From contig CP073750.1 of the NCBI GenBank assembly GCA_024398135.1, forward strand, positions 248,001-312,000: a stretch of 64,000 bases of DNA, in the 5' to 3' direction. Shown here piece by piece: positions 8,740 through 21,194 of this stretch. Each line of letters starts with the position of its first letter. Positions within the stretch are counted from its first letter, which is position 1. This DNA comes from a bacterium SCSIO 12643 (GTDB taxonomy: Bacteria > Bacteroidota > Bacteroidia > Flavobacteriales_G > Salibacteraceae). Position numbers and translations under genes: made by a program. Below the pieces are notes generated by a model. The model was not told where the DNA came from, made no database searches, and worked only from the letters and a program-made list of their open reading frames with translations.

Positions 8740-9228
8740 ATGGCAACTATACATCAAAACCTATCTGACTATTCTTCTGAAGATGTTCCAAACGGCAATA
8801 AATACACTATTGCCATTATTAGAAGTGAATGGAATGAAGATATTACTCAAAATCTGGCAGACGGAGCCGAAAGCGCATTGTTAGATAATGGTGTATTAGA
8901 AGAAAATATCATCAGGCATGATGTTCCCGGTGCTTACGAATTACCCCTTGCTGCCCAATGGATGGCTAATAAACCTGAAATTGATGCCGTGGTATGTATT
9001 GGTACTGTTATTCGTGGAGAAACGTCTCATTTCGACTTTGTGAGCCAGGCAGTTTCCCAAGGTGTTAAAGATGTTAGTTTAAAAACAAATAAACCGATCA
9101 TCTTTGGAGTACTTACTGATGATACCAAACAACAATCTATTGATCGATCTGGAGGTATTTTAGGAAATAAAGGTGTTGAAGCGGGGGTTACAGCTTTAAA
9201 AATGCTAGGTCTAAGAGACCAGCTCTAA
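8740..9228 (+). CDS. ribH: 6,7-dimethyl-8-ribityllumazine synthase
   Basis: Condenses 5-amino-6-ribitylamino-uracil with 3,4-dihydroxy-2-butanone 4-phosphate, the penultimate step of riboflavin synthesis. The 162-residue length is normal for the family. Visible motifs are the substrate-pocket SEWNEDIT, DVPGAYELPLAAQ, and GTVIRGETSHFDFV with the catalytic His, then a C-terminal GNKGVEAG helix. It has its own promoter. Its stop codon overlaps the stop of the convergent PKD-repeat gene by four bases. The riboflavin gene ribB is about 19 kb away on the same strand, so the pathway is dispersed here. Confidence 0.97.
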   Translation: MATIHQNLSDYSSEDVPNGNKYTIAIIRSEWNEDITQNLADGAESALLDNGVLEENIIRHDVPGAYELPLAAQWMANKPEIDAVVCIGTVIRGETSHFDFVSQAVSQGVKDVSLKTNKPIIFGVLTDDTKQQSIDRSGGILGNKGVEAGVTALKMLGLRDQL

Positions 9229-12200
9229 CGGGAAACTAAAACTACCATTCCCACGTAATCTTCGATCATTCCATTAAATCGTTTTACGCTGATTTTATAG
9301 GAAAACACAGAGTTGTGCGCTGTGATTCTACCATTTACTCTTCCATCCCATCCCTGGTTAAGGTCGGTTGTTTCATAGACCTGTACTCCCCATCTATCAA
9401 AGATGCGCATGTACACCAATTCTTTAATACCATAAGTTACAGGCATAAATAAATCATTATCTCCATCCCAATTAGGTGTAAACGAATTTGGGATGTATAC
9501 TGAAAAATCTTCTTCTACGTGTACAAAAAATGAGGTGTCACTAACAAAACACATATTGGTATCCTGATACGTGAGGGTGTATACGGTTGGTGTAGTAGGT
9601 GATACCAACGGTTCCGCACAATCACTACAACTTGCTGAGTTTGCCGGATTCCAGGAATAAAGCAACGGCATATTTGAAGACATATACACCTGATAATCTC
9701 CTCCAATAAAAATTGAGGTATCTGACGGGAAGAATAAAATTTGTGGTTTATGTTGTACTATAATTTCAACCGTATCGGTATTCTGACATAGGTTAGAATC
9801 CGTTGCAGTAACCACATATTGAATATCGCTGGTAGGCGTAGTAACCGGATTTTTAATATTCGGATTATCTAACCAGGTATTCGGTCCCCATTGATAGGTC
9901 AATCCGGCAGGATTCGCATTTAATTGGTAACTGTCTCCAATACATACTGCTTTATCATCAATAGCCTGAACATCAGGAAGCGGGAAAACTTCAATTATAT
10001 GCGTAGAAGTATCTGAACACTGCGTTTGCGAATCCCATGCAACCAATTTAATTTCATGCATTCCTGCAGAATCTAAATGAAATCCGGTTGTAAAATTTGT
10101 TGAGACCTGATTCCCATTTAAAAACCATCTCCAACTATCTTCACCAAAAGATTGATTAATAACCCCTAAACTTAAAGGGACACATCCATCATCTTGTGAC
10201 GTTAAAAAGTGTGATTCCACATGATCCACTTCCAAAATAATACTATCACTTTTCTGACATAAACCGGAAGAATCAGCATATAAAAGAATGATTGGATAAT
10301 TTCCGGGTTGGGTATACATATGTCCTATCATAGATTGAGGGTATGATGATGTATCGACTACTCCATCTCCAAAATCCCAGGTAAATAATCGTGCTCCAGA
10401 GTTATTTATGGCATCAAAGAATACGGTATCTCCCACACAACCAATTGCCGGATTCACTGTAATATTAGCCACAGGACCTCCTATATTTATAAAATTAGGT
10501 TTCGTAATTGTATCTGTACATCCATAGGTTGTTTTCACTACCAAAGTCACATCATACTGTCCCGGGTTATTATATAAGTTCTGTGCGGTAGTCCCACTTA
10601 GCGTAACAAAATTCGGTGAATCACCAAAGTTCCAGGTCCATGTAGCTCCATTCTGAACAATACTGGAATCCGTAAACATGACACTGGCCGGGTAACAAGT
10701 CGCAACGGTAGGATTTGCGATAAAATTTGCTATCGGTAAACTTTGAACATCAATATTTTGAGGCATTACATAAGTCGAATCACAACCCATCCCGTCAGTT
10801 ACGGTTAAAGAAACAGTATAGTTTCCTGAAGAATAGGCATGTTGCGGTTGATATAATGTACTGGTGGTCCCATCTCCAAAATCCCAGAAATAAGTAAAAT
10901 TCGTTCCTGTGGGTGCACTATGGAAATATGCTGAATCTCCGTCACATAGTAGATTATTGACTACTGCAAAGCTCGCTGGTGGCTGGGTAGTATGAATGTA
11001 ATTCGTTTTTTCATGTTCGTTAGTACACCCGAAAGTATCTACCACTATCAATTCTACATCATAAGTATTATTGAGTACTCCATCATAAATATGCAACGGA
11101 TGTTGCAACGAAGAGGTTGAGCCATCCCCAAATTTCCAATGCCATGAGACAATGTTTGTATCAGTAACGGTCAAATCAGTAAACTGTACCGGTAACGGAT
11201 CACAACCAGAAGTAGGATTTCCGACAAAATCAACCACCGGGTGATATACGAATATATCATTGACCAATGTATCCGTACAGTCGTTTTGGTCACGTACAAC
11301 TGCAAATACATGATTTAATCCGGGTTGCGTAAACGTAAACTGATTATTGGTAAAACCCGAGGAATATGCCGTATCTGTATTGAATCCCCACCGGACATCT
11401 CCCAATGCATTTATAGACGAACCTGTATTAAAAAACACTACATCGCCCTTACAAATAGTGGTATCAGAATTCGTTAATATACCTTCTAAAAACCGTATAG
11501 CCAGTTCGACTTCTGCGTCCTGCCAACAGCCGGTAGTAGAGTCATAGACGGTTAAAATAGCCATATAATTGGAGTCCACAGGAGGATATAAATGTGATGT
11601 ATTCCAATTCACAGAATCTATAGTAGAACTATCTCCAAAATCCCACCAAAAGCTTGTTCCACCAAGCGCATGAGGAACAAATGTCATCAGGTTTGGTGTG
11701 TCACAATTTATAATATTATCAAATCCAATGACGGGACCTGAAATATGTATAATCGAGTCAATGGTAATAGTATCCTTACATCCGTTATAAGATGCCACTA
11801 ATGACACACTCATATATCCGGTATCCAAAAATAAATGGGCAGGTTCAAAATCACTTGAAGAAGTTCCATCTCCAAAGTCCCAGAAGTATTCATCCAATAA
11901 ATTGGTATCTTGTGATAGGTTAATAAAATTAACGGTATCAGAACCACATGCGACTATGGTATCAATAGTGAAATTAGCAGTTTGGACAGACCCTACCTCT
12001 ATCCATACCTGATAATTGGTTGTACAGCCATCTACAGAAATAACAGTCAATTCTACCTGATACTCCCCAGGGTTCATAAAAGTGTGATTTGGAGAGAAAC
12101 TATAATCTAGCGGAGAACCATCCGCAAAATCCCAAATAGTACTGTCTATTGAAGCTACTGGTGTTGTTAAATTAGTGAAGTCAACATAAAGCGGTGCACA

Positions 12201-13583
12201 TCCATTTGACACACTGGGCGTGAAATAAGCCTGAGTAATTTCAATAGTGTCATTGGCGGGTATGACAGCCATACTTTTACAACCATTTGCTGTAGTCACC
12301 ACTAAAGTATCATCAAATATACCTTCTCCGTAATACGTATGTGATGGGTTTTGTACATCACTAGAATCTCTTGGATATCCAGGATGAGTTCCAAAATACC
12401 ACTTCCATTCCACAATATTTCCAATAGACTGGTCTACAAAATTTGCTATTAAAAATGGTTCACATGAGAAATTTGGCGATGACGTAAAAGCAGCCTGAAC
12501 ATATTCCACCACAATATCTTGTGTTACTGTATCATCACAATTCAATCCTGCACTTGAAATCAAAGTCACGGTATAGGTACCTGGAGTCGTGTAGATATGA
12601 TCTACCACAGGACCAAAATCTGTAGAACCATCTCCGAAATCCCAATAAAAGTTACTTCCACCATTTGAAATATTGGTCATCGTAGTGGGTACCCCCGGAC
12701 AAGTAGTATCAGGAATATCCATTGCTGCCTGAATACTTCCAATCCATACGTAGTTTGGTATGGACAAGGTATCTGTACAACCTAGTGTGTTTGTCACAAT
12801 TAATTCCACATCATATCCCCCTGGTTGTGTAAAGGTGGATGTTACTGTAGGTGTGGTATAACTTGTACCGTCAATCGTCCAATTATAAGTTAATGTTCCG
12901 GTACCCGTTGATGAATTCAAAAAATTGACCGTTAAGGGAGGGGCGCATGCCGTTGCTGATCCCGTTGTATAAAAATTTGCACTTGGTTGCGGATGTACAT
13001 TCACAAGGTTAGGCTGCACACTTGTAGAACTACAACCTAGCGTATCAGTAACGATAAGTGTCACAGAATATGTTCCCGCATTGGCATAAACATGCGTTTG
13101 ATTTTGACCACTTACGATTGGGGTTCCATCATCAAAATCCCATTTCCAGGAGGAGATAGGTGCATTTGAAGGAATAGATAAATCCGTGACTTGAAATGGA
13201 AATGGCGCACAACCGGTTACCGTTGGCTGAAAAGTAAAAGCCGCATTTGGAGCCGCTAAAACATGAATGTAAGCTGCTTTGGTGATGCTAACCGTATCCA
13301 CCCCATCAGAAACGGTAAGCGTTACAGTATAAGTACCCGAAGAATTATAAGCCGCAGAAGGGTTCATATTATTCCCAACAGCTGTATTTCCATTGCCAAA
13401 ATCCCAGTGGCGATAAACTATTCCACCGGTGGACAAATCATTAAAATCTGCGATAAAGGGTACACATCCCACGGTAGAATCCGCATCAAAATCAGCCACA
13501 ATTTGAGCATAAGAAACCTCTACTGTAAAATACAGCAATAGCATTACCAACAACCTTTGAGTATAGCTATATATTTGGCTCAT
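9225..13583 (-). CDS. Giant PKD-repeat secreted protein with type B T9SS sorting domain
   Basis: 1452 residues. A signal peptide (about 1-26, ending SYAQ) is followed by about fourteen tandem PKD-like Ig domains, each with a variant of the WDFGDGT core (for example HWDFGNGN, YWDFGDGST, FWDFGDGTT, HWKFGDGST), spaced about 85-100 residues. Two further Ig-like modules follow, with CIGDSYQLNA and CSDCAEPLVSP. The C-terminal 90 residues (VYIPNSFTPNWDGDND, then MRIFDRWG) are the gliding-motility-associated, type B T9SS sorting domain. The protein is therefore probably exported by T9SS and surface-attached or released; PKD arrays of this sort act as spacers or adhesins. It ends against ribH, sharing a four-base stop overlap. 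No enzyme domain was seen. Confidence 0.93.
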   Translation of the reverse strand: MSQIYSYTQRLLVMLLLYFTVEVSYAQIVADFDADSTVGCVPFIADFNDLSTGGIVYRHWDFGNGNTAVGNNMNPSAAYNSSGTYTVTLTVSDGVDTVSITKAAYIHVLAAPNAAFTFQPTVTGCAPFPFQVTDLSIPSNAPISSWKWDFDDGTPIVSGQNQTHVYANAGTYSVTLIVTDTLGCSSTSVQPNLVNVHPQPSANFYTTGSATACAPPLTVNFLNSSTGTGTLTYNWTIDGTSYTTPTVTSTFTQPGGYDVELIVTNTLGCTDTLSIPNYVWIGSIQAAMDIPDTTCPGVPTTMTNISNGGSNFYWDFGDGSTDFGPVVDHIYTTPGTYTVTLISSAGLNCDDTVTQDIVVEYVQAAFTSSPNFSCEPFLIANFVDQSIGNIVEWKWYFGTHPGYPRDSSDVQNPSHTYYGEGIFDDTLVVTTANGCKSMAVIPANDTIEITQAYFTPSVSNGCAPLYVDFTNLTTPVASIDSTIWDFADGSPLDYSFSPNHTFMNPGEYQVELTVISVDGCTTNYQVWIEVGSVQTANFTIDTIVACGSDTVNFINLSQDTNLLDEYFWDFGDGTSSSDFEPAHLFLDTGYMSVSLVASYNGCKDTITIDSIIHISGPVIGFDNIINCDTPNLMTFVPHALGGTSFWWDFGDSSTIDSVNWNTSHLYPPVDSNYMAILTVYDSTTGCWQDAEVELAIRFLEGILTNSDTTICKGDVVFFNTGSSINALGDVRWGFNTDTAYSSGFTNNQFTFTQPGLNHVFAVVRDQNDCTDTLVNDIFVYHPVVDFVGNPTSGCDPLPVQFTDLTVTDTNIVSWHWKFGDGSTSSLQHPLHIYDGVLNNTYDVELIVVDTFGCTNEHEKTNYIHTTQPPASFAVVNNLLCDGDSAYFHSAPTGTNFTYFWDFGDGTTSTLYQPQHAYSSGNYTVSLTVTDGMGCDSTYVMPQNIDVQSLPIANFIANPTVATCYPASVMFTDSSIVQNGATWTWNFGDSPNFVTLSGTTAQNLYNNPGQYDVTLVVKTTYGCTDTITKPNFINIGGPVANITVNPAIGCVGDTVFFDAINNSGARLFTWDFGDGVVDTSSYPQSMIGHMYTQPGNYPIILLYADSSGLCQKSDSIILEVDHVESHFLTSQDDGCVPLSLGVINQSFGEDSWRWFLNGNQVSTNFTTGFHLDSAGMHEIKLVAWDSQTQCSDTSTHIIEVFPLPDVQAIDDKAVCIGDSYQLNANPAGLTYQWGPNTWLDNPNIKNPVTTPTSDIQYVVTATDSNLCQNTDTVEIIVQHKPQILFFPSDTSIFIGGDYQVYMSSNMPLLYSWNPANSASCSDCAEPLVSPTTPTVYTLTYQDTNMCFVSDTSFFVHVEEDFSVYIPNSFTPNWDGDNDLFMPVTYGIKELVYMRIFDRWGVQVYETTDLNQGWDGRVNGRITAHNSVFSYKISVKRFNGMIEDYVGMVVLVSR

Positions 13584-15495: not shown

Positions 15496-16542
15496 TTATT
15501 TGCTACTCAAATCATTCTCGACACTCAATCTTGCCAAAGGAGCATTCCCTTTTGAAGCAAAATCTCCAGACAGGAATTTTAAATACGCAGTAATTGCAAT
15601 CATTGCCCCATTATCAGTCGTATATTCCATTTTAGGAATAAATACATTCCAGGATTTTGATTTTTGAAGATCTAATAAACCTCTTCTTAAACCACTATTT
15701 GCAGATACTCCACCTGCTACAGCTACATTCTTAATTCCAGTTTCCCTTACGGCACGTTTAACCTTTCCCAATAATGTTTCTACGATGGTATACTGAACCG
15801 AAGCACAGATATCTGCTTTATTTTTATTAATAAAGTCCGGATTTTTGGCGATTTCCTTTTGCAGAAAATATAGAACTGAAGTCTTTAATCCACTAAAACT
15901 AAAATTTAACCCCTGCATTTTTGATCTTGGAAATTCAAAAGCATCCGGATTACCTTCTTGTGCATATTTATCAATCAAAGGCCCTCCCGGATAAGGTAAT
16001 CCCATGATTTTAGCAATTTTATCAAATGCTTCTCCGGCTGCATCATCTTGCGTTTGACCTAACAATTCCATATCAAAATGATTGTTCACTTTTACGATTT
16101 GGGTATGTCCTCCCGAAACCGTTAAACATAAAAATGGGAATTCAGGAATATTTGATGAACCATCAGATTCTGTAATAAAATGAGCCAAAATGTGCGCTTG
16201 CATATGATTCACTTCAATCAAAGGAATGTCTAAACTCATAGACAATCCTTTAGCAAATGAACTTCCAACCAATAATGAACCTAATAAACCCGGACCACGC
16301 GTATAGCCTATAGCGGATATCTCTTCCACTTTAACATCCGCCTTTTTCAGAGCCATTTCCACAGTTGGAACAATGTTTTGTTGATGCGCTCTGGAAGCCA
16401 GTTCCGGAACAACTCCTCCAAACTCTTCATGTACGGTTTGACCGGAAATTACGTTTGAACATCGTACACCATCTTTTATAACTGCAACGGAGGTATCATC
16501 GCACGAAGACTCTATTCCTAATATGATAATTGGTGCACTCAT
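15496..16542 (-). CDS. tsaD: tRNA N6-adenosine threonylcarbamoyltransferase TsaD
   Basis: 348 residues, normal for the family. TsaD transfers the threonylcarbamoyl group from threonylcarbamoyl-AMP to A37 of ANN-reading tRNAs, working with TsaB and TsaE. Visible are the ASKHA nucleotide-binding start GIESSCDDTSVA, the metal-binding HMQAH (His 113 and 117) in the family signature, the GGHTQ loop near 160, AGGVSAN near 280 and the C-terminal YTTDNGAMIA metal site. It is a single gene on the minus strand, divergent from the TamB-like gene with about 65 bases between the two starts. Confidence 0.98.
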   Translation of the reverse strand: MSAPIIILGIESSCDDTSVAVIKDGVRCSNVISGQTVHEEFGGVVPELASRAHQQNIVPTVEMALKKADVKVEEISAIGYTRGPGLLGSLLVGSSFAKGLSMSLDIPLIEVNHMQAHILAHFITESDGSSNIPEFPFLCLTVSGGHTQIVKVNNHFDMELLGQTQDDAAGEAFDKIAKIMGLPYPGGPLIDKYAQEGNPDAFEFPRSKMQGLNFSFSGLKTSVLYFLQKEIAKNPDFINKNKADICASVQYTIVETLLGKVKRAVRETGIKNVAVAGGVSANSGLRRGLLDLQKSKSWNVFIPKMEYTTDNGAMIAITAYLKFLSGDFASKGNAPLARLSVENDLSSK

Positions 16543-16547
16543 TTAAT

Positions 16548-16555
16548 TAATTTTG
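16548..16555 (+). promoter_or_regulatory. -7 promoter box for the TamB-like gene
   Basis: TAATTTTG matches TAnnTTTG and predicts a transcript starting near 16561, downstream of the divergent tsaD start. This places the whole missing-start region of the TamB-like gene inside the mRNA. Confidence 0.5.
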
Positions 16556-16607
16556 CAAACGATTTTAGCCAGTAGTTTTTGGCACTATTTTTAAAGAAAA
16601 CAAAACT

Positions 16608-19600
16608 ATCAAAAAAGTCCTCAAAATACTTAAGTACATTGCAATTGTACTCGTCCTGTTCATTCTTTTGATACAGTTCTTTTTGTGGACCTCCTTTGGG
16701 CAGACTCTAATTGCAAAACAAGCAGCATCCTATCTTGAAAAAAAACTCAATACTGTAGTTCAGGTGGATAAGGTGGACATCAGCTTTTTTAAATTTATTC
16801 GATTAGAGAAACTCTATATTGAAGATTTACAACATGATACTTTGTTTTATATCGATAATCTGGATGCTGAAATAGAGTCTTTTGATTTCAAAGAGGACAC
16901 TACGCTACTCCAATTTGGGCTGGTTCAAATTGATCAACCGGTATATAATCTTCAACAAACTATTGATAGTCAGCATACCAATTTGGCTTTTTTAATCGAT
17001 GCTTTTTCATCTAATGACACGACCTCAAGTGGCATGAATATTCTGATAAATGCTTCGAACATTATCGTCACCAACGGACACTTTATCTGGGATAATGATA
17101 ACTATGAGGTAATTCCATTTGGTGTGGATTGGAACCATATTGAATTGAATCAGATTAATTTGGATGTGACCAACTTTAAAATGGTCAATGATTCATTTAA
17201 CGGACACTTTGATACCTTTTCCTGGTCAGAAAGGTCTGGATTCGTATTAGATCATTTTTATGGAGATGCGATTTTCAGTCCAACCACTACTCAGGTGGAA
17301 AACTTAAAGATTAAAACCCCGTACTCTGATTTAGCATTAGATCTCGAGTATACTTACGATTCCATAGCTTCATATGCCGAATTTATTGATCAGGTATATA
17401 TGCAATACAAACTGGACACCTCTATCATCAACTTTAAAGACATCGCTTATTTTGCTCCTCCTTTGGAAGGCTTAGATTATGAAGTAACCGTATTTGGAAA
17501 AGAGCGTGGCCCGGTAAGTGATATGAAATTTCAGGATATTTTTCTGCAATATGGTGAAGCGACTACACTCTATGGGAGAATTTTCATTGTAGGATTACCG
17601 GATTTTGAGTCTACATCATTCACCTGCAAATTCAAACATCTTAGTAGTAATTACAATGATTTAACCTCGATAAAGGCCTATCCATTTAATGAAGGTAAAC
17701 AATTGGAAATCCCACACTTTCTGAATAATGCAGGCACCATTGATTTTAAAGGGAATTTCACTGGATTCTATAATGATTTTGTAACCTATGGGACTTTTAA
17801 ATCCGATAAAGAGATCATCAATACCGACTTACAACTGGCGCAAGAAGAATCCGGGACAGTAAGGTATAGTGGAGCCATTAAAACCACGAATTTTGATTTA
17901 GCGCGAATCATGAATAAACAAGATTTATTAGGCAAGGTCAGTATGGATATTCAGGTTAAAGGAGAAAACCTGGCCTTTGAAAAAATGGATCTGGAAGTGG
18001 AAGGAAAAGCATCTCGATTTGATTTTATGGGGTACACCTATAAGGATATCACATTTGATGGTACCATTATCGACCAAACCATTAAAGGGCTTTTGGACAT
18101 TGTAGATACCAATGTGAATCTCTCATTTGATGGCAGCATTGCTTTGGGGGGTGAAGTTCCCCGATATGAATTCTCCTCAAAAATTGAACATCTTCGCCCA
18201 GGACAACTTCATTTAATGGATAAAGACAGTTCTTCAACGGTGAGTACCGAAGTGGTCTTTAACTTCCAGGGAGATTCCTTTGACAATGTATTGGGTCGAG
18301 CGGGATTACGAAATTTCCATTATGTTGAAAATGGAAAACCGGTAACGTTGGAAAAAGTAGATTTTCTGGCATTTACTACCGGTAAGGACAAAACACTAGC
18401 GCTTAGTTCCGATAACATGACCATGCAAATCACAGGACAATTTTACTTTAAGGAACTACTCAAATCTCTTAATTATGTGATCTATAAATGGCTCCCTTCT
18501 GTTTATAGTGAACCACAAATCAAACCTGAAACTGTAGAGAATTTCCATTTGGTTTTAAAAGCCAAAAAATTCAGTGGGTTCTCTGCTATATTCATTCCAC
18601 AGGTTACATTCAAAAGTGATCTGAATATCGATTTCTCATTCAATTCTGAAGCAGAAGAGATTGAACTTTTAGCCAACTCTTCTCGAATGAATCTCATAGG
18701 TCAGGATGTTGCAGACCTGGATTTAAATGCAAAACTTACCACAGATACTTTTAACTTAAAAGCACGAATTGGTTCTGTATTGTTTACAGATAGTAACTAC
18801 ATCGAGAACTTTAATGTGAAGGCCGAAGCCATAGAAAACTTAATTCAATCCAACTTACATTGGGATAATTATCTGGATTCAAATAGAAATGCAGGTGATA
18901 TCAATTTTGACCTACAATTTATTGATCCTGAAAACTTCCAAATAGGGTTTACAGATTCCTGGGTAACCATCAAGGATACACTTTGGGCGCTGCATGATTC
19001 CAGTGAAATCATCAAACGCCAAAAAGAATATGTATTTAATGATGTGATGTTGGCGCAAAGCTATCAAAGCTTTAGGCTTAATGGTTTTATTAGTGAAGAC
19101 CCAGAAAAAGAATTAGAAATTGAAGTAGACAGTTTTAACCTGAAATTCCTCAACCCGTTATTCAATAAATACAACATTCATACTGAGGGTATTGTGGACG
19201 GCTCTACCATACTTAAAGATGTATATAATGATATTCGTCTCTACTCCAATTCTAATTTTAAAGACCTGACATTCAATCACCAAAAATTAGGTTCAGGTCA
19301 TCTTAAATCAGAATGGGATGCTGAAAATGAAAAGTTCGATCTGGACTTAAACTTCGAAAATGATACTTTAAAAACCATTTCTTTGGACGGATCTTACTAC
19401 CCTAAAAGAAAGGAAAACAAATTGGATGTTAAACTCTCATTAGATCATTTTCCAGCAAATGTTGTAGAACCGTTTTTTACCGAATTTATTGATCAGGTCT
19501 CCGGAACCGTTAATGGGACAGCCAGTTTAACAGGCACTTTTAATGAGCCTGTACTCCAGGGTAACTTCACGCTCAATGAAGTAAAAACCAGAGTGATTTA

Positions 19601-21194
19601 TTTGAACGAAGTTCTTTACGTAAATGATCAGGATGTTTTTATTCGCCCTAACCTCATCGGTGCAGATGCGATATATATTACCGATGCCGCAGGAAAAAAA
19701 GCGCAGGTCAACTTCTCTCTATTTCACAATAATTTTGACGATATAAATTTTGATTTGGCCGTTACATCTGTCAGTCTTTTTAGAGCATTTAATACGACCA
19801 AAGTTGACAATGATTATTTCTACGGAACGATCTATCTAAATCCCGGCTCCACAATTGGCATTGATTCCGATTACGATGGAAACCTCAATTTATCGGCCAA
19901 TGTTAAATCCGGTCCGGGCACACAGGTCTACATTCCGTTCTTTGAGGATGATGAAGTAGCGCAAAAGGATTATATCTATTTTAAAGATATCAATATTAAA
20001 ACTGAAGTTATCCCTGAGGAAGATTTGCATAAAGAAGAAACCTTTGGATTAAATCTGGATATGTCCATGGAGCTAAACAAAAATGCGATGGTACAATTAA
20101 TCTTTGATGAGTTTACTTCAGACAAGATTCAAGCGCGTGGGGATGGAACAATTAATCTAAAAATCAACGAGGATAACGATTTTAGCATTTATGGAAATTA
20201 TGAAATTTCAGAAGGATTCTATCTCTTTACCTTCTCAAAGGTAATCAGCAAGCGATTTGTTATTAACTCAGGAAGTCGCCTTACATGGAATGGTGACCCC
20301 TATAAAGGACAAGCAGATATTACAGCATCATATAACGTAAGAACCGCATTATTTGAACTTGGAATTACAGCGGCTTACGATACAGCAGAGTTGAAAAAGC
20401 GTGTTCCTGTGGACGTCATGCTAAAAATGACGGGGAATTATATGAATCCGGATTTATCCTTTTCATTTAAACTTCCGCCAAAGTATGATGAAATTCAAAC
20501 GCTTCTCAATAGCCTGGATGAAGGAGAGCGCAACAAGCAGGTTTTTGGATTACTGATTCTGAATAAGTTTATGCCCATCACCGGAAATGATGTGGCTGCA
20601 AGTTCTAATATGTTAGCGACCAATTCTACTGAAGTATTATCTAATCAGCTAAGTAACTGGCTTTCTAAAATTAGTAATGATTTTGATGTAGGGGTTCGAT
20701 ATAGTCCGGGAGATAATATTACCGCAGATGAAGTTGAAGTGGCACTTTCTACGCAGCTATTTAATGATCGGGTTTTGGTGGAAACCAACTTTGGAATCTC
20801 CGGAAATGTAAGCAGTAGTACTACCACCAAGACAAATAACTTCGTTGGTGAATTTACGGTTTCTTATAAAGTCAATCGCAAGGGGAATATTGTTGGAAAG
20901 GTATTCAATCGATCAAACGAACTCAATCCGGTATATCAAAATATTTCGCCATATACCCAGGGAATTGGTATTGCTTATACAGAACCTTTTAAAAGCTGGG
21001 ACAATCTAGGTTGTATCTTATCTAATCACTTGAAAAAAGCTGAAAACAAAAGAGATTGCGAAGCAGAATACTACAAACAACAAGAAGAGGAGCGTGAAGA
21101 GAATCTGGCTATTATCAATAAAAAAGTAGCTAGAAGTCGTAAAAAACAGGAAAAACGCAAGCTGAAAAAAGCCAAGAAAGGGCAGACAAATTAA
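16608..21194 (+). CDS. TamB-like translocation and assembly module protein (non-ATG start)
   Basis: About 1528 residues if started at ATC 16608. A signal-anchor (KYIAIVLVLFILLIQFFLW) is followed by the AsmA-like SFGQTLIAKQAASYLEKKL motif, long beta-rich repeats, and a C-terminal DUF490/TamB domain (about 1100-1470), ending in a Lys/Arg-rich tail. TamB proteins span the periplasm and help insert outer-membrane proteins or move lipids. No ATG, GTG or TTG precedes the signal-anchor in this frame: the frame opens after a TAG at 16566 and the first usual start, TTG 16668, would remove most of the anchor. ATC 16608, giving (M)KKVLKILKY, or ATT 16587 is the likeliest start. It overlaps the GNAT gene by four bases at the stops. 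Confidence 0.85.
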   Translation: MKKVLKILKYIAIVLVLFILLIQFFLWTSFGQTLIAKQAASYLEKKLNTVVQVDKVDISFFKFIRLEKLYIEDLQHDTLFYIDNLDAEIESFDFKEDTTLLQFGLVQIDQPVYNLQQTIDSQHTNLAFLIDAFSSNDTTSSGMNILINASNIIVTNGHFIWDNDNYEVIPFGVDWNHIELNQINLDVTNFKMVNDSFNGHFDTFSWSERSGFVLDHFYGDAIFSPTTTQVENLKIKTPYSDLALDLEYTYDSIASYAEFIDQVYMQYKLDTSIINFKDIAYFAPPLEGLDYEVTVFGKERGPVSDMKFQDIFLQYGEATTLYGRIFIVGLPDFESTSFTCKFKHLSSNYNDLTSIKAYPFNEGKQLEIPHFLNNAGTIDFKGNFTGFYNDFVTYGTFKSDKEIINTDLQLAQEESGTVRYSGAIKTTNFDLARIMNKQDLLGKVSMDIQVKGENLAFEKMDLEVEGKASRFDFMGYTYKDITFDGTIIDQTIKGLLDIVDTNVNLSFDGSIALGGEVPRYEFSSKIEHLRPGQLHLMDKDSSSTVSTEVVFNFQGDSFDNVLGRAGLRNFHYVENGKPVTLEKVDFLAFTTGKDKTLALSSDNMTMQITGQFYFKELLKSLNYVIYKWLPSVYSEPQIKPETVENFHLVLKAKKFSGFSAIFIPQVTFKSDLNIDFSFNSEAEEIELLANSSRMNLIGQDVADLDLNAKLTTDTFNLKARIGSVLFTDSNYIENFNVKAEAIENLIQSNLHWDNYLDSNRNAGDINFDLQFIDPENFQIGFTDSWVTIKDTLWALHDSSEIIKRQKEYVFNDVMLAQSYQSFRLNGFISEDPEKELEIEVDSFNLKFLNPLFNKYNIHTEGIVDGSTILKDVYNDIRLYSNSNFKDLTFNHQKLGSGHLKSEWDAENEKFDLDLNFENDTLKTISLDGSYYPKRKENKLDVKLSLDHFPANVVEPFFTEFIDQVSGTVNGTASLTGTFNEPVLQGNFTLNEVKTRVIYLNEVLYVNDQDVFIRPNLIGADAIYITDAAGKKAQVNFSLFHNNFDDINFDLAVTSVSLFRAFNTTKVDNDYFYGTIYLNPGSTIGIDSDYDGNLNLSANVKSGPGTQVYIPFFEDDEVAQKDYIYFKDINIKTEVIPEEDLHKEETFGLNLDMSMELNKNAMVQLIFDEFTSDKIQARGDGTINLKINEDNDFSIYGNYEISEGFYLFTFSKVISKRFVINSGSRLTWNGDPYKGQADITASYNVRTALFELGITAAYDTAELKKRVPVDVMLKMTGNYMNPDLSFSFKLPPKYDEIQTLLNSLDEGERNKQVFGLLILNKFMPITGNDVAASSNMLATNSTEVLSNQLSNWLSKISNDFDVGVRYSPGDNITADEVEVALSTQLFNDRVLVETNFGISGNVSSSTTTKTNNFVGEFTVSYKVNRKGNIVGKVFNRSNELNPVYQNISPYTQGIGIAYTEPFKSWDNLGCILSNHLKKAENKRDCEAEYYKQQEEEREENLAIINKKVARSRKKQEKRKLKKAKKGQTN

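Follow-up and report, generated by a model that had tools for sequence, protein, structure and literature searches.

A conserved AUU or AUC codon as the likely translation start of tamB, overlapping a probable promoter of the divergent tsaD gene

Where does translation of tamB begin in bacterium SCSIO 12643? The gene lies in the window, i.e., the whole 64,000-nt stretch of DNA analysed here (contig CP073750.1, positions 248,001 to 312,000 of the forward strand). Its reading frame is bounded upstream by an in-frame stop (TAG, 16566..16568, plus strand) and is open as far as the TAA at 21192-21194. The product matches the Pfam TamB family PF04357 with E 2.4e-47 (162.4 bits, gathering cut-off 22.4) and scores below the cut-off of the NCBIfam equivalog NF047952 for autotransporter-assembly TamB (39.2 bits vs 825). 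A preliminary description of this DNA had noted that no usual start codon precedes the membrane anchor of the protein, and the letters of the window confirm this: no in-frame ATG, GTG or TTG is found between TAG 16566 and TTG 16668 (16668..16670, plus strand), the first canonical codon downstream. The further statement that the leader contains no plus-strand ATG in any frame also holds, over 16543 to 16720. Initiator-like codons in the frame are ATT 16587, ATC 16608, ATA 16626, ATT 16638, ATT 16644, CTG 16656, ATT 16662 and the same TTG 16668; out-of-frame TTGs, absent from the earlier account, occur at 16553, 16579, 16639 and 16645.

The candidate start codon is ATC at 16608..16610 (plus strand), proposed on the basis of codon conservation in relatives. 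If begun there, the coding sequence, as outlined by the Pfam match and the open frame, occupies 16608..21194 on the plus strand and encodes 1528 amino acids. Translation from 16608, read together with an alignment of 23 sequences, includes an N-terminal signal anchor, the hydrophobic part of which (16638..16688, plus strand) comes just after IKKVLKILKY; lysines 2 and 3 are each conserved in at least 90% of the aligned sequences. Initiation at TTG 16668 would cost codons 1-20, most of the anchor included. The divergent neighbour is tsaD, a gene of tRNA t6A synthesis (15496..16542, minus strand; Pfam TsaD, E 1e-93). Elsewhere in the window, at 9225-13583 on the minus strand, a 1452-residue PKD-domain protein is encoded, with 11 PKD_4 stretches and a CHU_C type IX secretion signal domain at its end.

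The codon aligned with ATC 16608 was examined in three sets of relatives. In the first, 100 related genomes of one class were searched, 92 matched, and 89 loci were read. These include a few second paralogues, such as L088 and L089, but most of that kind were passed over, together with fragments of the C-terminus and part of the N-terminal matches (for example, that in genome G074, which begins at residue 28). The second set, taken from genome contigs, covers 80 of 127 relatives and, minus 10 duplicates, adds 70 loci; its records are nearly all metagenome-assembled genomes, labelled mostly as Bacteroidota in general and in one case (L171) as Saccharibacteria. Together these make 159 loci, the window genome and 158 others. 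A phylum-wide search for the third set matched 95 of 148 genomes and gave 30 loci, of which 3 had already been counted and 27 were read, one of them (L229) from another class and one (L220) repeating L089. Thirteen of the 27 are linked to tsaD; the other 14 comprise 13 loci with frames of 1601-1714 residues and one fragment. We take the class to be Bacteroidia, since loci of the first set recur in the second under Flavobacteriales or Bacteroidetes labels. Loci within groups are related, so that the counts given below are not independent.

In the combined sample the aligned codon is ATC in 55 loci, ATT in 52, TTG in 8, ACC in 7, GTG in 5, ATA in 3 and ATG in 2, with other codons in the rest (first set alone: ATC 42, ATT 12, ATA 2, ATG 1; second set alone: ATT 40, ATC 13, ATA 1, ATG 1). 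ATC, ATT or ATA, collectively ATH, thus stands there in 110 of the 159 loci. Seventy of these 110 have no canonical in-frame codon from the last stop, which lies a median of 16.5 nt upstream (within 21 nt in 44 of the 70), to the aligned codon, and the remaining 40 have an upstream ATG, GTG or TTG in frame, which may serve as their start. Because 70 of 159 loci share this lack and have ATH at the aligned position, the missing start of the window gene is not a chance feature. In the third set, ATC or ATT is found in 11 of the 13 tsaD-linked loci, eight times without an alternative, and ATG in one; none of the 14 loci without the tsaD link has a match that opens with ATC or ATT and then two basic codons. 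Two of the paralogues of TamB2 length, L216 and L218, likewise have no clear canonical start, with ATA or CTG at the beginning of the match. The comparison of relatives that the preliminary description called for therefore shows ATC or ATT kept at the very codon aligned with 16608, in which it had placed an infC-like AUC start.

By family, ATH occurs in 28 of the 46 families of the first set (89 loci); in 18 of the 46 at least one locus has no alternative, in 10 ATH is found only with an upstream alternative, and the other 18 have no ATH at this column. The AUU/AUC codon of tamB is widespread in the class, and as a start it is probably old. As a control, tsaD itself gives 0 of 133 loci without an in-frame canonical codon before the conserved TsaD motif, a lenient measure, as it also counts codons within the first residues. 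Seven loci have neither an initiator-like codon at the tamB column nor an alternative within 60 nt upstream, so in some cases either the alignment or the reading of AUY (AUU or AUC) as the start fails. In Brumimicrobium salinarum (L178), the one named cultured strain, an ATG lies 3 nt upstream of the column. Plasmid records checked for annotated tamB starts contained no tamB match.

Several properties of the column make it likely to be the start codon. ATA makes up 3 of the 110 ATH codons, compared with 270 of 1011 (27%) isoleucine codons nearby within the gene (binomial p 1.6e-11, not a true probability, because the loci are related). A canonical in-frame codon within 60 nt upstream is present in 27 of the 34 loci in which the column is not initiator-like, vs 44 of the 125 others (Fisher p 5e-6). 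The 45 nt upstream are poor in out-of-frame ATG: the 110 ATH loci contain 16, where shuffling gives 56.9 (sd 6.9), and the 70 loci without an alternative contain 13, where it gives 35.0 (sd 5.5); there is no depletion in a control stretch from -145 to -100 (58 against 55.3, sd 7.0). Depletion of AUG around true starts has been reported for Bacteroidia (PMC8710568).

In a group of 23 loci ATT is invariant at the column, and the entropies at codon positions 1, 2 and 3 are 0.79, 0.20 and 1.12 over codons 2-16, compared with 1.18, 1.33 and 0.91 upstream. Among codons 2-11 of this group, codons that differ by one base show only a moderate skew, 437 differences being synonymous and 374 not. Five loci of one genus (g9) in the same family have ACC at the column, and each has GTG, and mostly TTG too, upstream. 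ACC is also found in L004, with an ATG nine bases downstream, and in L029, with an ATG immediately before.

Shine-Dalgarno-like 5-mers between -20 and -4 are found in 4 of the 110 ATH loci, and there are none in the leader of the window gene. Five leaders were folded and gave no signal of RNA structure (z-scores from -0.93 to 1.28). T precedes the codon at -1 in 101 of the 110 ATH loci. We considered extended codon-anticodon pairing through this conserved U and rejected it, as CAAARNTA is the TAnnTTTG promoter box on the other strand; T stands at -1 in 14 of the 21 ATH loci that are tsaD-linked and have a poor box, which gives no clear signal. The strong preferences for T at -1, C at -7 and AAA are thus left out as translation signals, since the overlapping box explains them at least partly.

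A second gene of the class behaves in a similar way. The infC gene was found in 57 genomes, and 30 of its loci (L090-L119) were read, 20 of which are devoid of canonical codons from the last stop to a point 15 nt before the IF3_N match. The apparent infC starts in the class are ATA, ATT or ATC, and the infC of the window's own genome (L093) lies near position 889365 of contig G000:C1. GGAGG or AGGAG was seen near or in the infC frame in 17 of the 30 loci, although the class is generally without Shine-Dalgarno use; the stretch searched began 12 nt ahead of the open frame and ended at the domain, and some of these motifs may lie inside the gene. With 20 of 30 infC loci lacking canonical codons, initiation at AUH is probably in use in this class.

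The start codon is embedded in what appears to be a promoter of the other gene. In a flavobacterium, TAnnTTTG is the -7 box of the housekeeping sigma factor, located at -12 to -5 (PMC9723704). Positions -7 to +1 of tamB read CAAAnnTA, the reverse complement of this box, so that the predicted -7 box of the tsaD promoter, TAGTTTTG (16601..16608, minus strand), overlaps the first letter of the start codon. On the plus strand, TAATTTTG at 16548..16555 is the predicted -7 box of tamB. It fits a transcript start near 16560, close to the value of about 16561 given in the preliminary description, but such boxes occur in the 5-kb locus of the window at chance frequency (6 found vs 6.2 expected); a single box alone proves nothing, and the case rests on position. 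A divergent TsaD motif is found in 133 of the 155 loci that have at least 250 nt upstream. CAAAnnTA sits exactly at -7 in 77 of 135 tsaD-linked loci, compared with 14 of 135 that have it anywhere in a 130-nt window of the gene body. On the tamB side, a box between -130 and -20 occurs in 54 of 107 ATH loci, vs 4 of 107 in the gene body and 7.2 (sd 2.6) in shuffled sequences. We could not find a single conserved position for the -33 TTG element of tsaD, counted as CAA, in the tsaD-linked loci.

Around the codon, the DNA itself is conserved, in an element from -7 to +33 (16601..16640, not assigned to a strand) delineated by the identity of congeners and by same-codon rates. Three congeneric loci are 97-100% identical over +1 to +33 and 60-71% further in. 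Each of the five groups examined has an elevated same-codon rate at codons 2-3 and 7-9; the rate is back to background by codons 10-12 in three of these groups and by codons 13-20 in the other two. The box also survives loss of the start codon, being intact in six of the seven loci with ACC (L029 is the exception) and in locus L007 with AGG; conversely, 26 of the 107 ATH loci keep ATH despite a poor box, with under 5 of its 6 letters. We read the tsaD box and the tamB start codon as two separate constraints, as each occurs without the other, and the minus-strand box overlapping the start as probably that of the tsaD promoter.

Two variants at this site may be recorded here. In L004, L044, L050, L051, L052 and L062, ACC replaces ATY near another canonical codon and the CAAAnnTA box is intact. 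In one lineage (L017, L018, L153, L157, L159 and L164) TTG directly follows a box moved to -8, a pattern that a one-base insertion and a new start codon would produce if the promoter box were retained; these six loci also favour a start at the column. Since the predicted tamB and tsaD promoters point towards one another, the 5' ends of the two transcripts would also overlap in antisense by about 37 nt (16560-16596).

The overlap of the tsaD box with the start codon supplies the most serious of the alternatives, namely that AUY is fixed by the tsaD promoter, i.e., by its -7 box and upstream flank on the minus strand, and not by any advantage of weak translation. Such a view draws on the exact placement of the box at -7, on its persistence in the ACC and AGG loci where the start codon has been lost, and on the synonymous conservation in codons 2-3 and 7-9, which fits a -7 and -33 layout. 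Yet ATG is compatible with the box, the two being found together in L005, the loci with poor boxes still keep ATH, and ATH without any alternative start is seen in 18 tsaD-linked loci whose box is poor. The failure to find a -33 TTG at one standard distance and the AUH codons of infC, which has no such arrangement, also speak against it, and on balance we regard it as improbable.

Other explanations do away with the AUY start altogether. If translation began downstream, at the first canonical codon, the anchor would be truncated; TTG 16668 is available for this in the window, and relatives have canonical codons a median of 17 codons downstream, as close as 7-10 codons in 14 of the 70 loci without an alternative. 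In the other 56 of these 70, however, the first such codon is at least 11 codons away, and codons 2-16 show constraint by codon position in the 23-locus group, with the two lysines conserved, so that a downstream start seems very unlikely. Even less credible is entry from an upstream start in another frame, with a frameshift at the A-rich run: ATC AAA AAA does look slippery, and an out-of-frame TTG is present at 16579, but the leader in the window has no ATG in any frame, and in 54 of the 70 loci without an alternative the 45 nt before the codon likewise have none. A sequencing or assembly error that destroyed an ATG, which the preliminary description had offered as its other option, has nothing in its favour but the unusual codon itself; we reject it as next to impossible, for both congeners read (L002 and L003) carry ATC, as do many separate assemblies, and ATH is found in 110 of the 159 loci.

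We consider it likely, on comparative grounds, that tamB translation starts at AUC 16608 and that selection has preserved a weak AUU or AUC start, so that TamB is limited. A single base change turns any ATH codon into ATG, yet ATG occupies the tamB column in only 2 of 159 loci and in 1 of the 13 tsaD-linked loci of the third set, which argues for selection. As to mechanism, initiator fMet-tRNA would mispair with AUY at the third base, and IF3 would destabilise most of the resulting initiation complexes, letting a small share succeed; TamB, a very large envelope protein, would then be synthesised at a low rate that follows IF3 or initiation fidelity. Without a Shine-Dalgarno sequence, the start may be marked by its A-rich site and by the lack of any AUG close by. 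It is plausible that TamB is held at a low level in this way. Initiation in vivo at AUC, its low yield and its dependence on IF3 are what we infer, and repression by IF3 is suggested by analogy with infC and sigR.

A bolder version, which we think doubtful, would make TamB synthesis a sensor of initiation fidelity (free IF3, state of the initiator tRNA) that ties the capacity for outer-membrane assembly to the translation apparatus across much of the class and with no aid from Shine-Dalgarno sequences, the start being fused to the probable tsaD promoter so that both genes belong to one circuit. The two could form such a circuit because t6A limits non-AUG initiation in yeast (PMC4717488); against this link, the initiator tRNA of E. 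coli has an unmodified A37 (PMC4717488).

If the proposed start is correct, a weak start kept across many families would throttle a gene that is essential to the outer membrane in those Bacteroidota studied to date, and gene callers limited to ATG, GTG and TTG would misplace the N-terminus of TamB. It would also raise the question of how ribosomes working without Shine-Dalgarno sequences recognise AUU and AUC. With opposed promoters and overlapping 5' leaders, as predicted, tsaD and tamB would make a compact regulatory arrangement.

For Bacteroidota, tamB is described as essential in Flavobacterium johnsoniae and Capnocytophaga canimorsus, and the native tamB promoter of F. johnsoniae could not be replaced (PMC12045153). 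The F. johnsoniae gene, Fjoh_4592, lies apart from tamL (PMC12045153), and its product belongs to the same protein family as TamB of the window. The sole passage on a start codon in the main text of that paper concerns tamL2/tamB2 and not the start of tamB, and we found no report of a non-AUG tamB start in Bacteroidota among the open-licence papers searched.

Among known non-canonical starts, tamB would belong with the conserved ones, as there is no canonical start before its N-terminus and the codon is kept in relatives. AUH start codons are shared with infC, which begins with ATT in E. coli and ATC in Streptomyces (PMC5472188) and with AUA in S. aureus (PMC13009471). Unlike infC, tamB has almost no Shine-Dalgarno-like motifs and uses AUU or AUC, rarely AUA; and it closes no autoregulatory loop, as TamB is not a translation factor. 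In this last respect tamB resembles E. coli pcnB, a gene outside translation limited by its AUU start (according to a title cited in PMC13009471), but E. coli ribosomes use Shine-Dalgarno sequences, whereas the ribosomes of Bacteroidia fail to recognise them (PMC9976891). In S. aureus, cvfC1 (AUU) and ccpN (AUA) have conserved weak starts that give about 10% of the reporter expression of AUG, with ccpN reaching as much as 30% in rich medium (PMC13009471); both carry extended Shine-Dalgarno motifs, and strong or extended motifs of this kind are not a feature of tamB. In Streptomyces sigR, the GTC start is under IF3 repression and a canonical start leads to overproduction (PMC5472188). Of 34 Streptomyces, 32 have GTC and two have GTT; the gene also has a strong ribosome-binding site, and the authors did not see the non-canonical start in other actinobacteria (PMC5472188). 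Like that of sigR, which keeps the protein low, the proposed tamB start is conserved and non-canonical; unlike it, the tamB start is found across many families, in a class whose ribosomes do without Shine-Dalgarno recognition.
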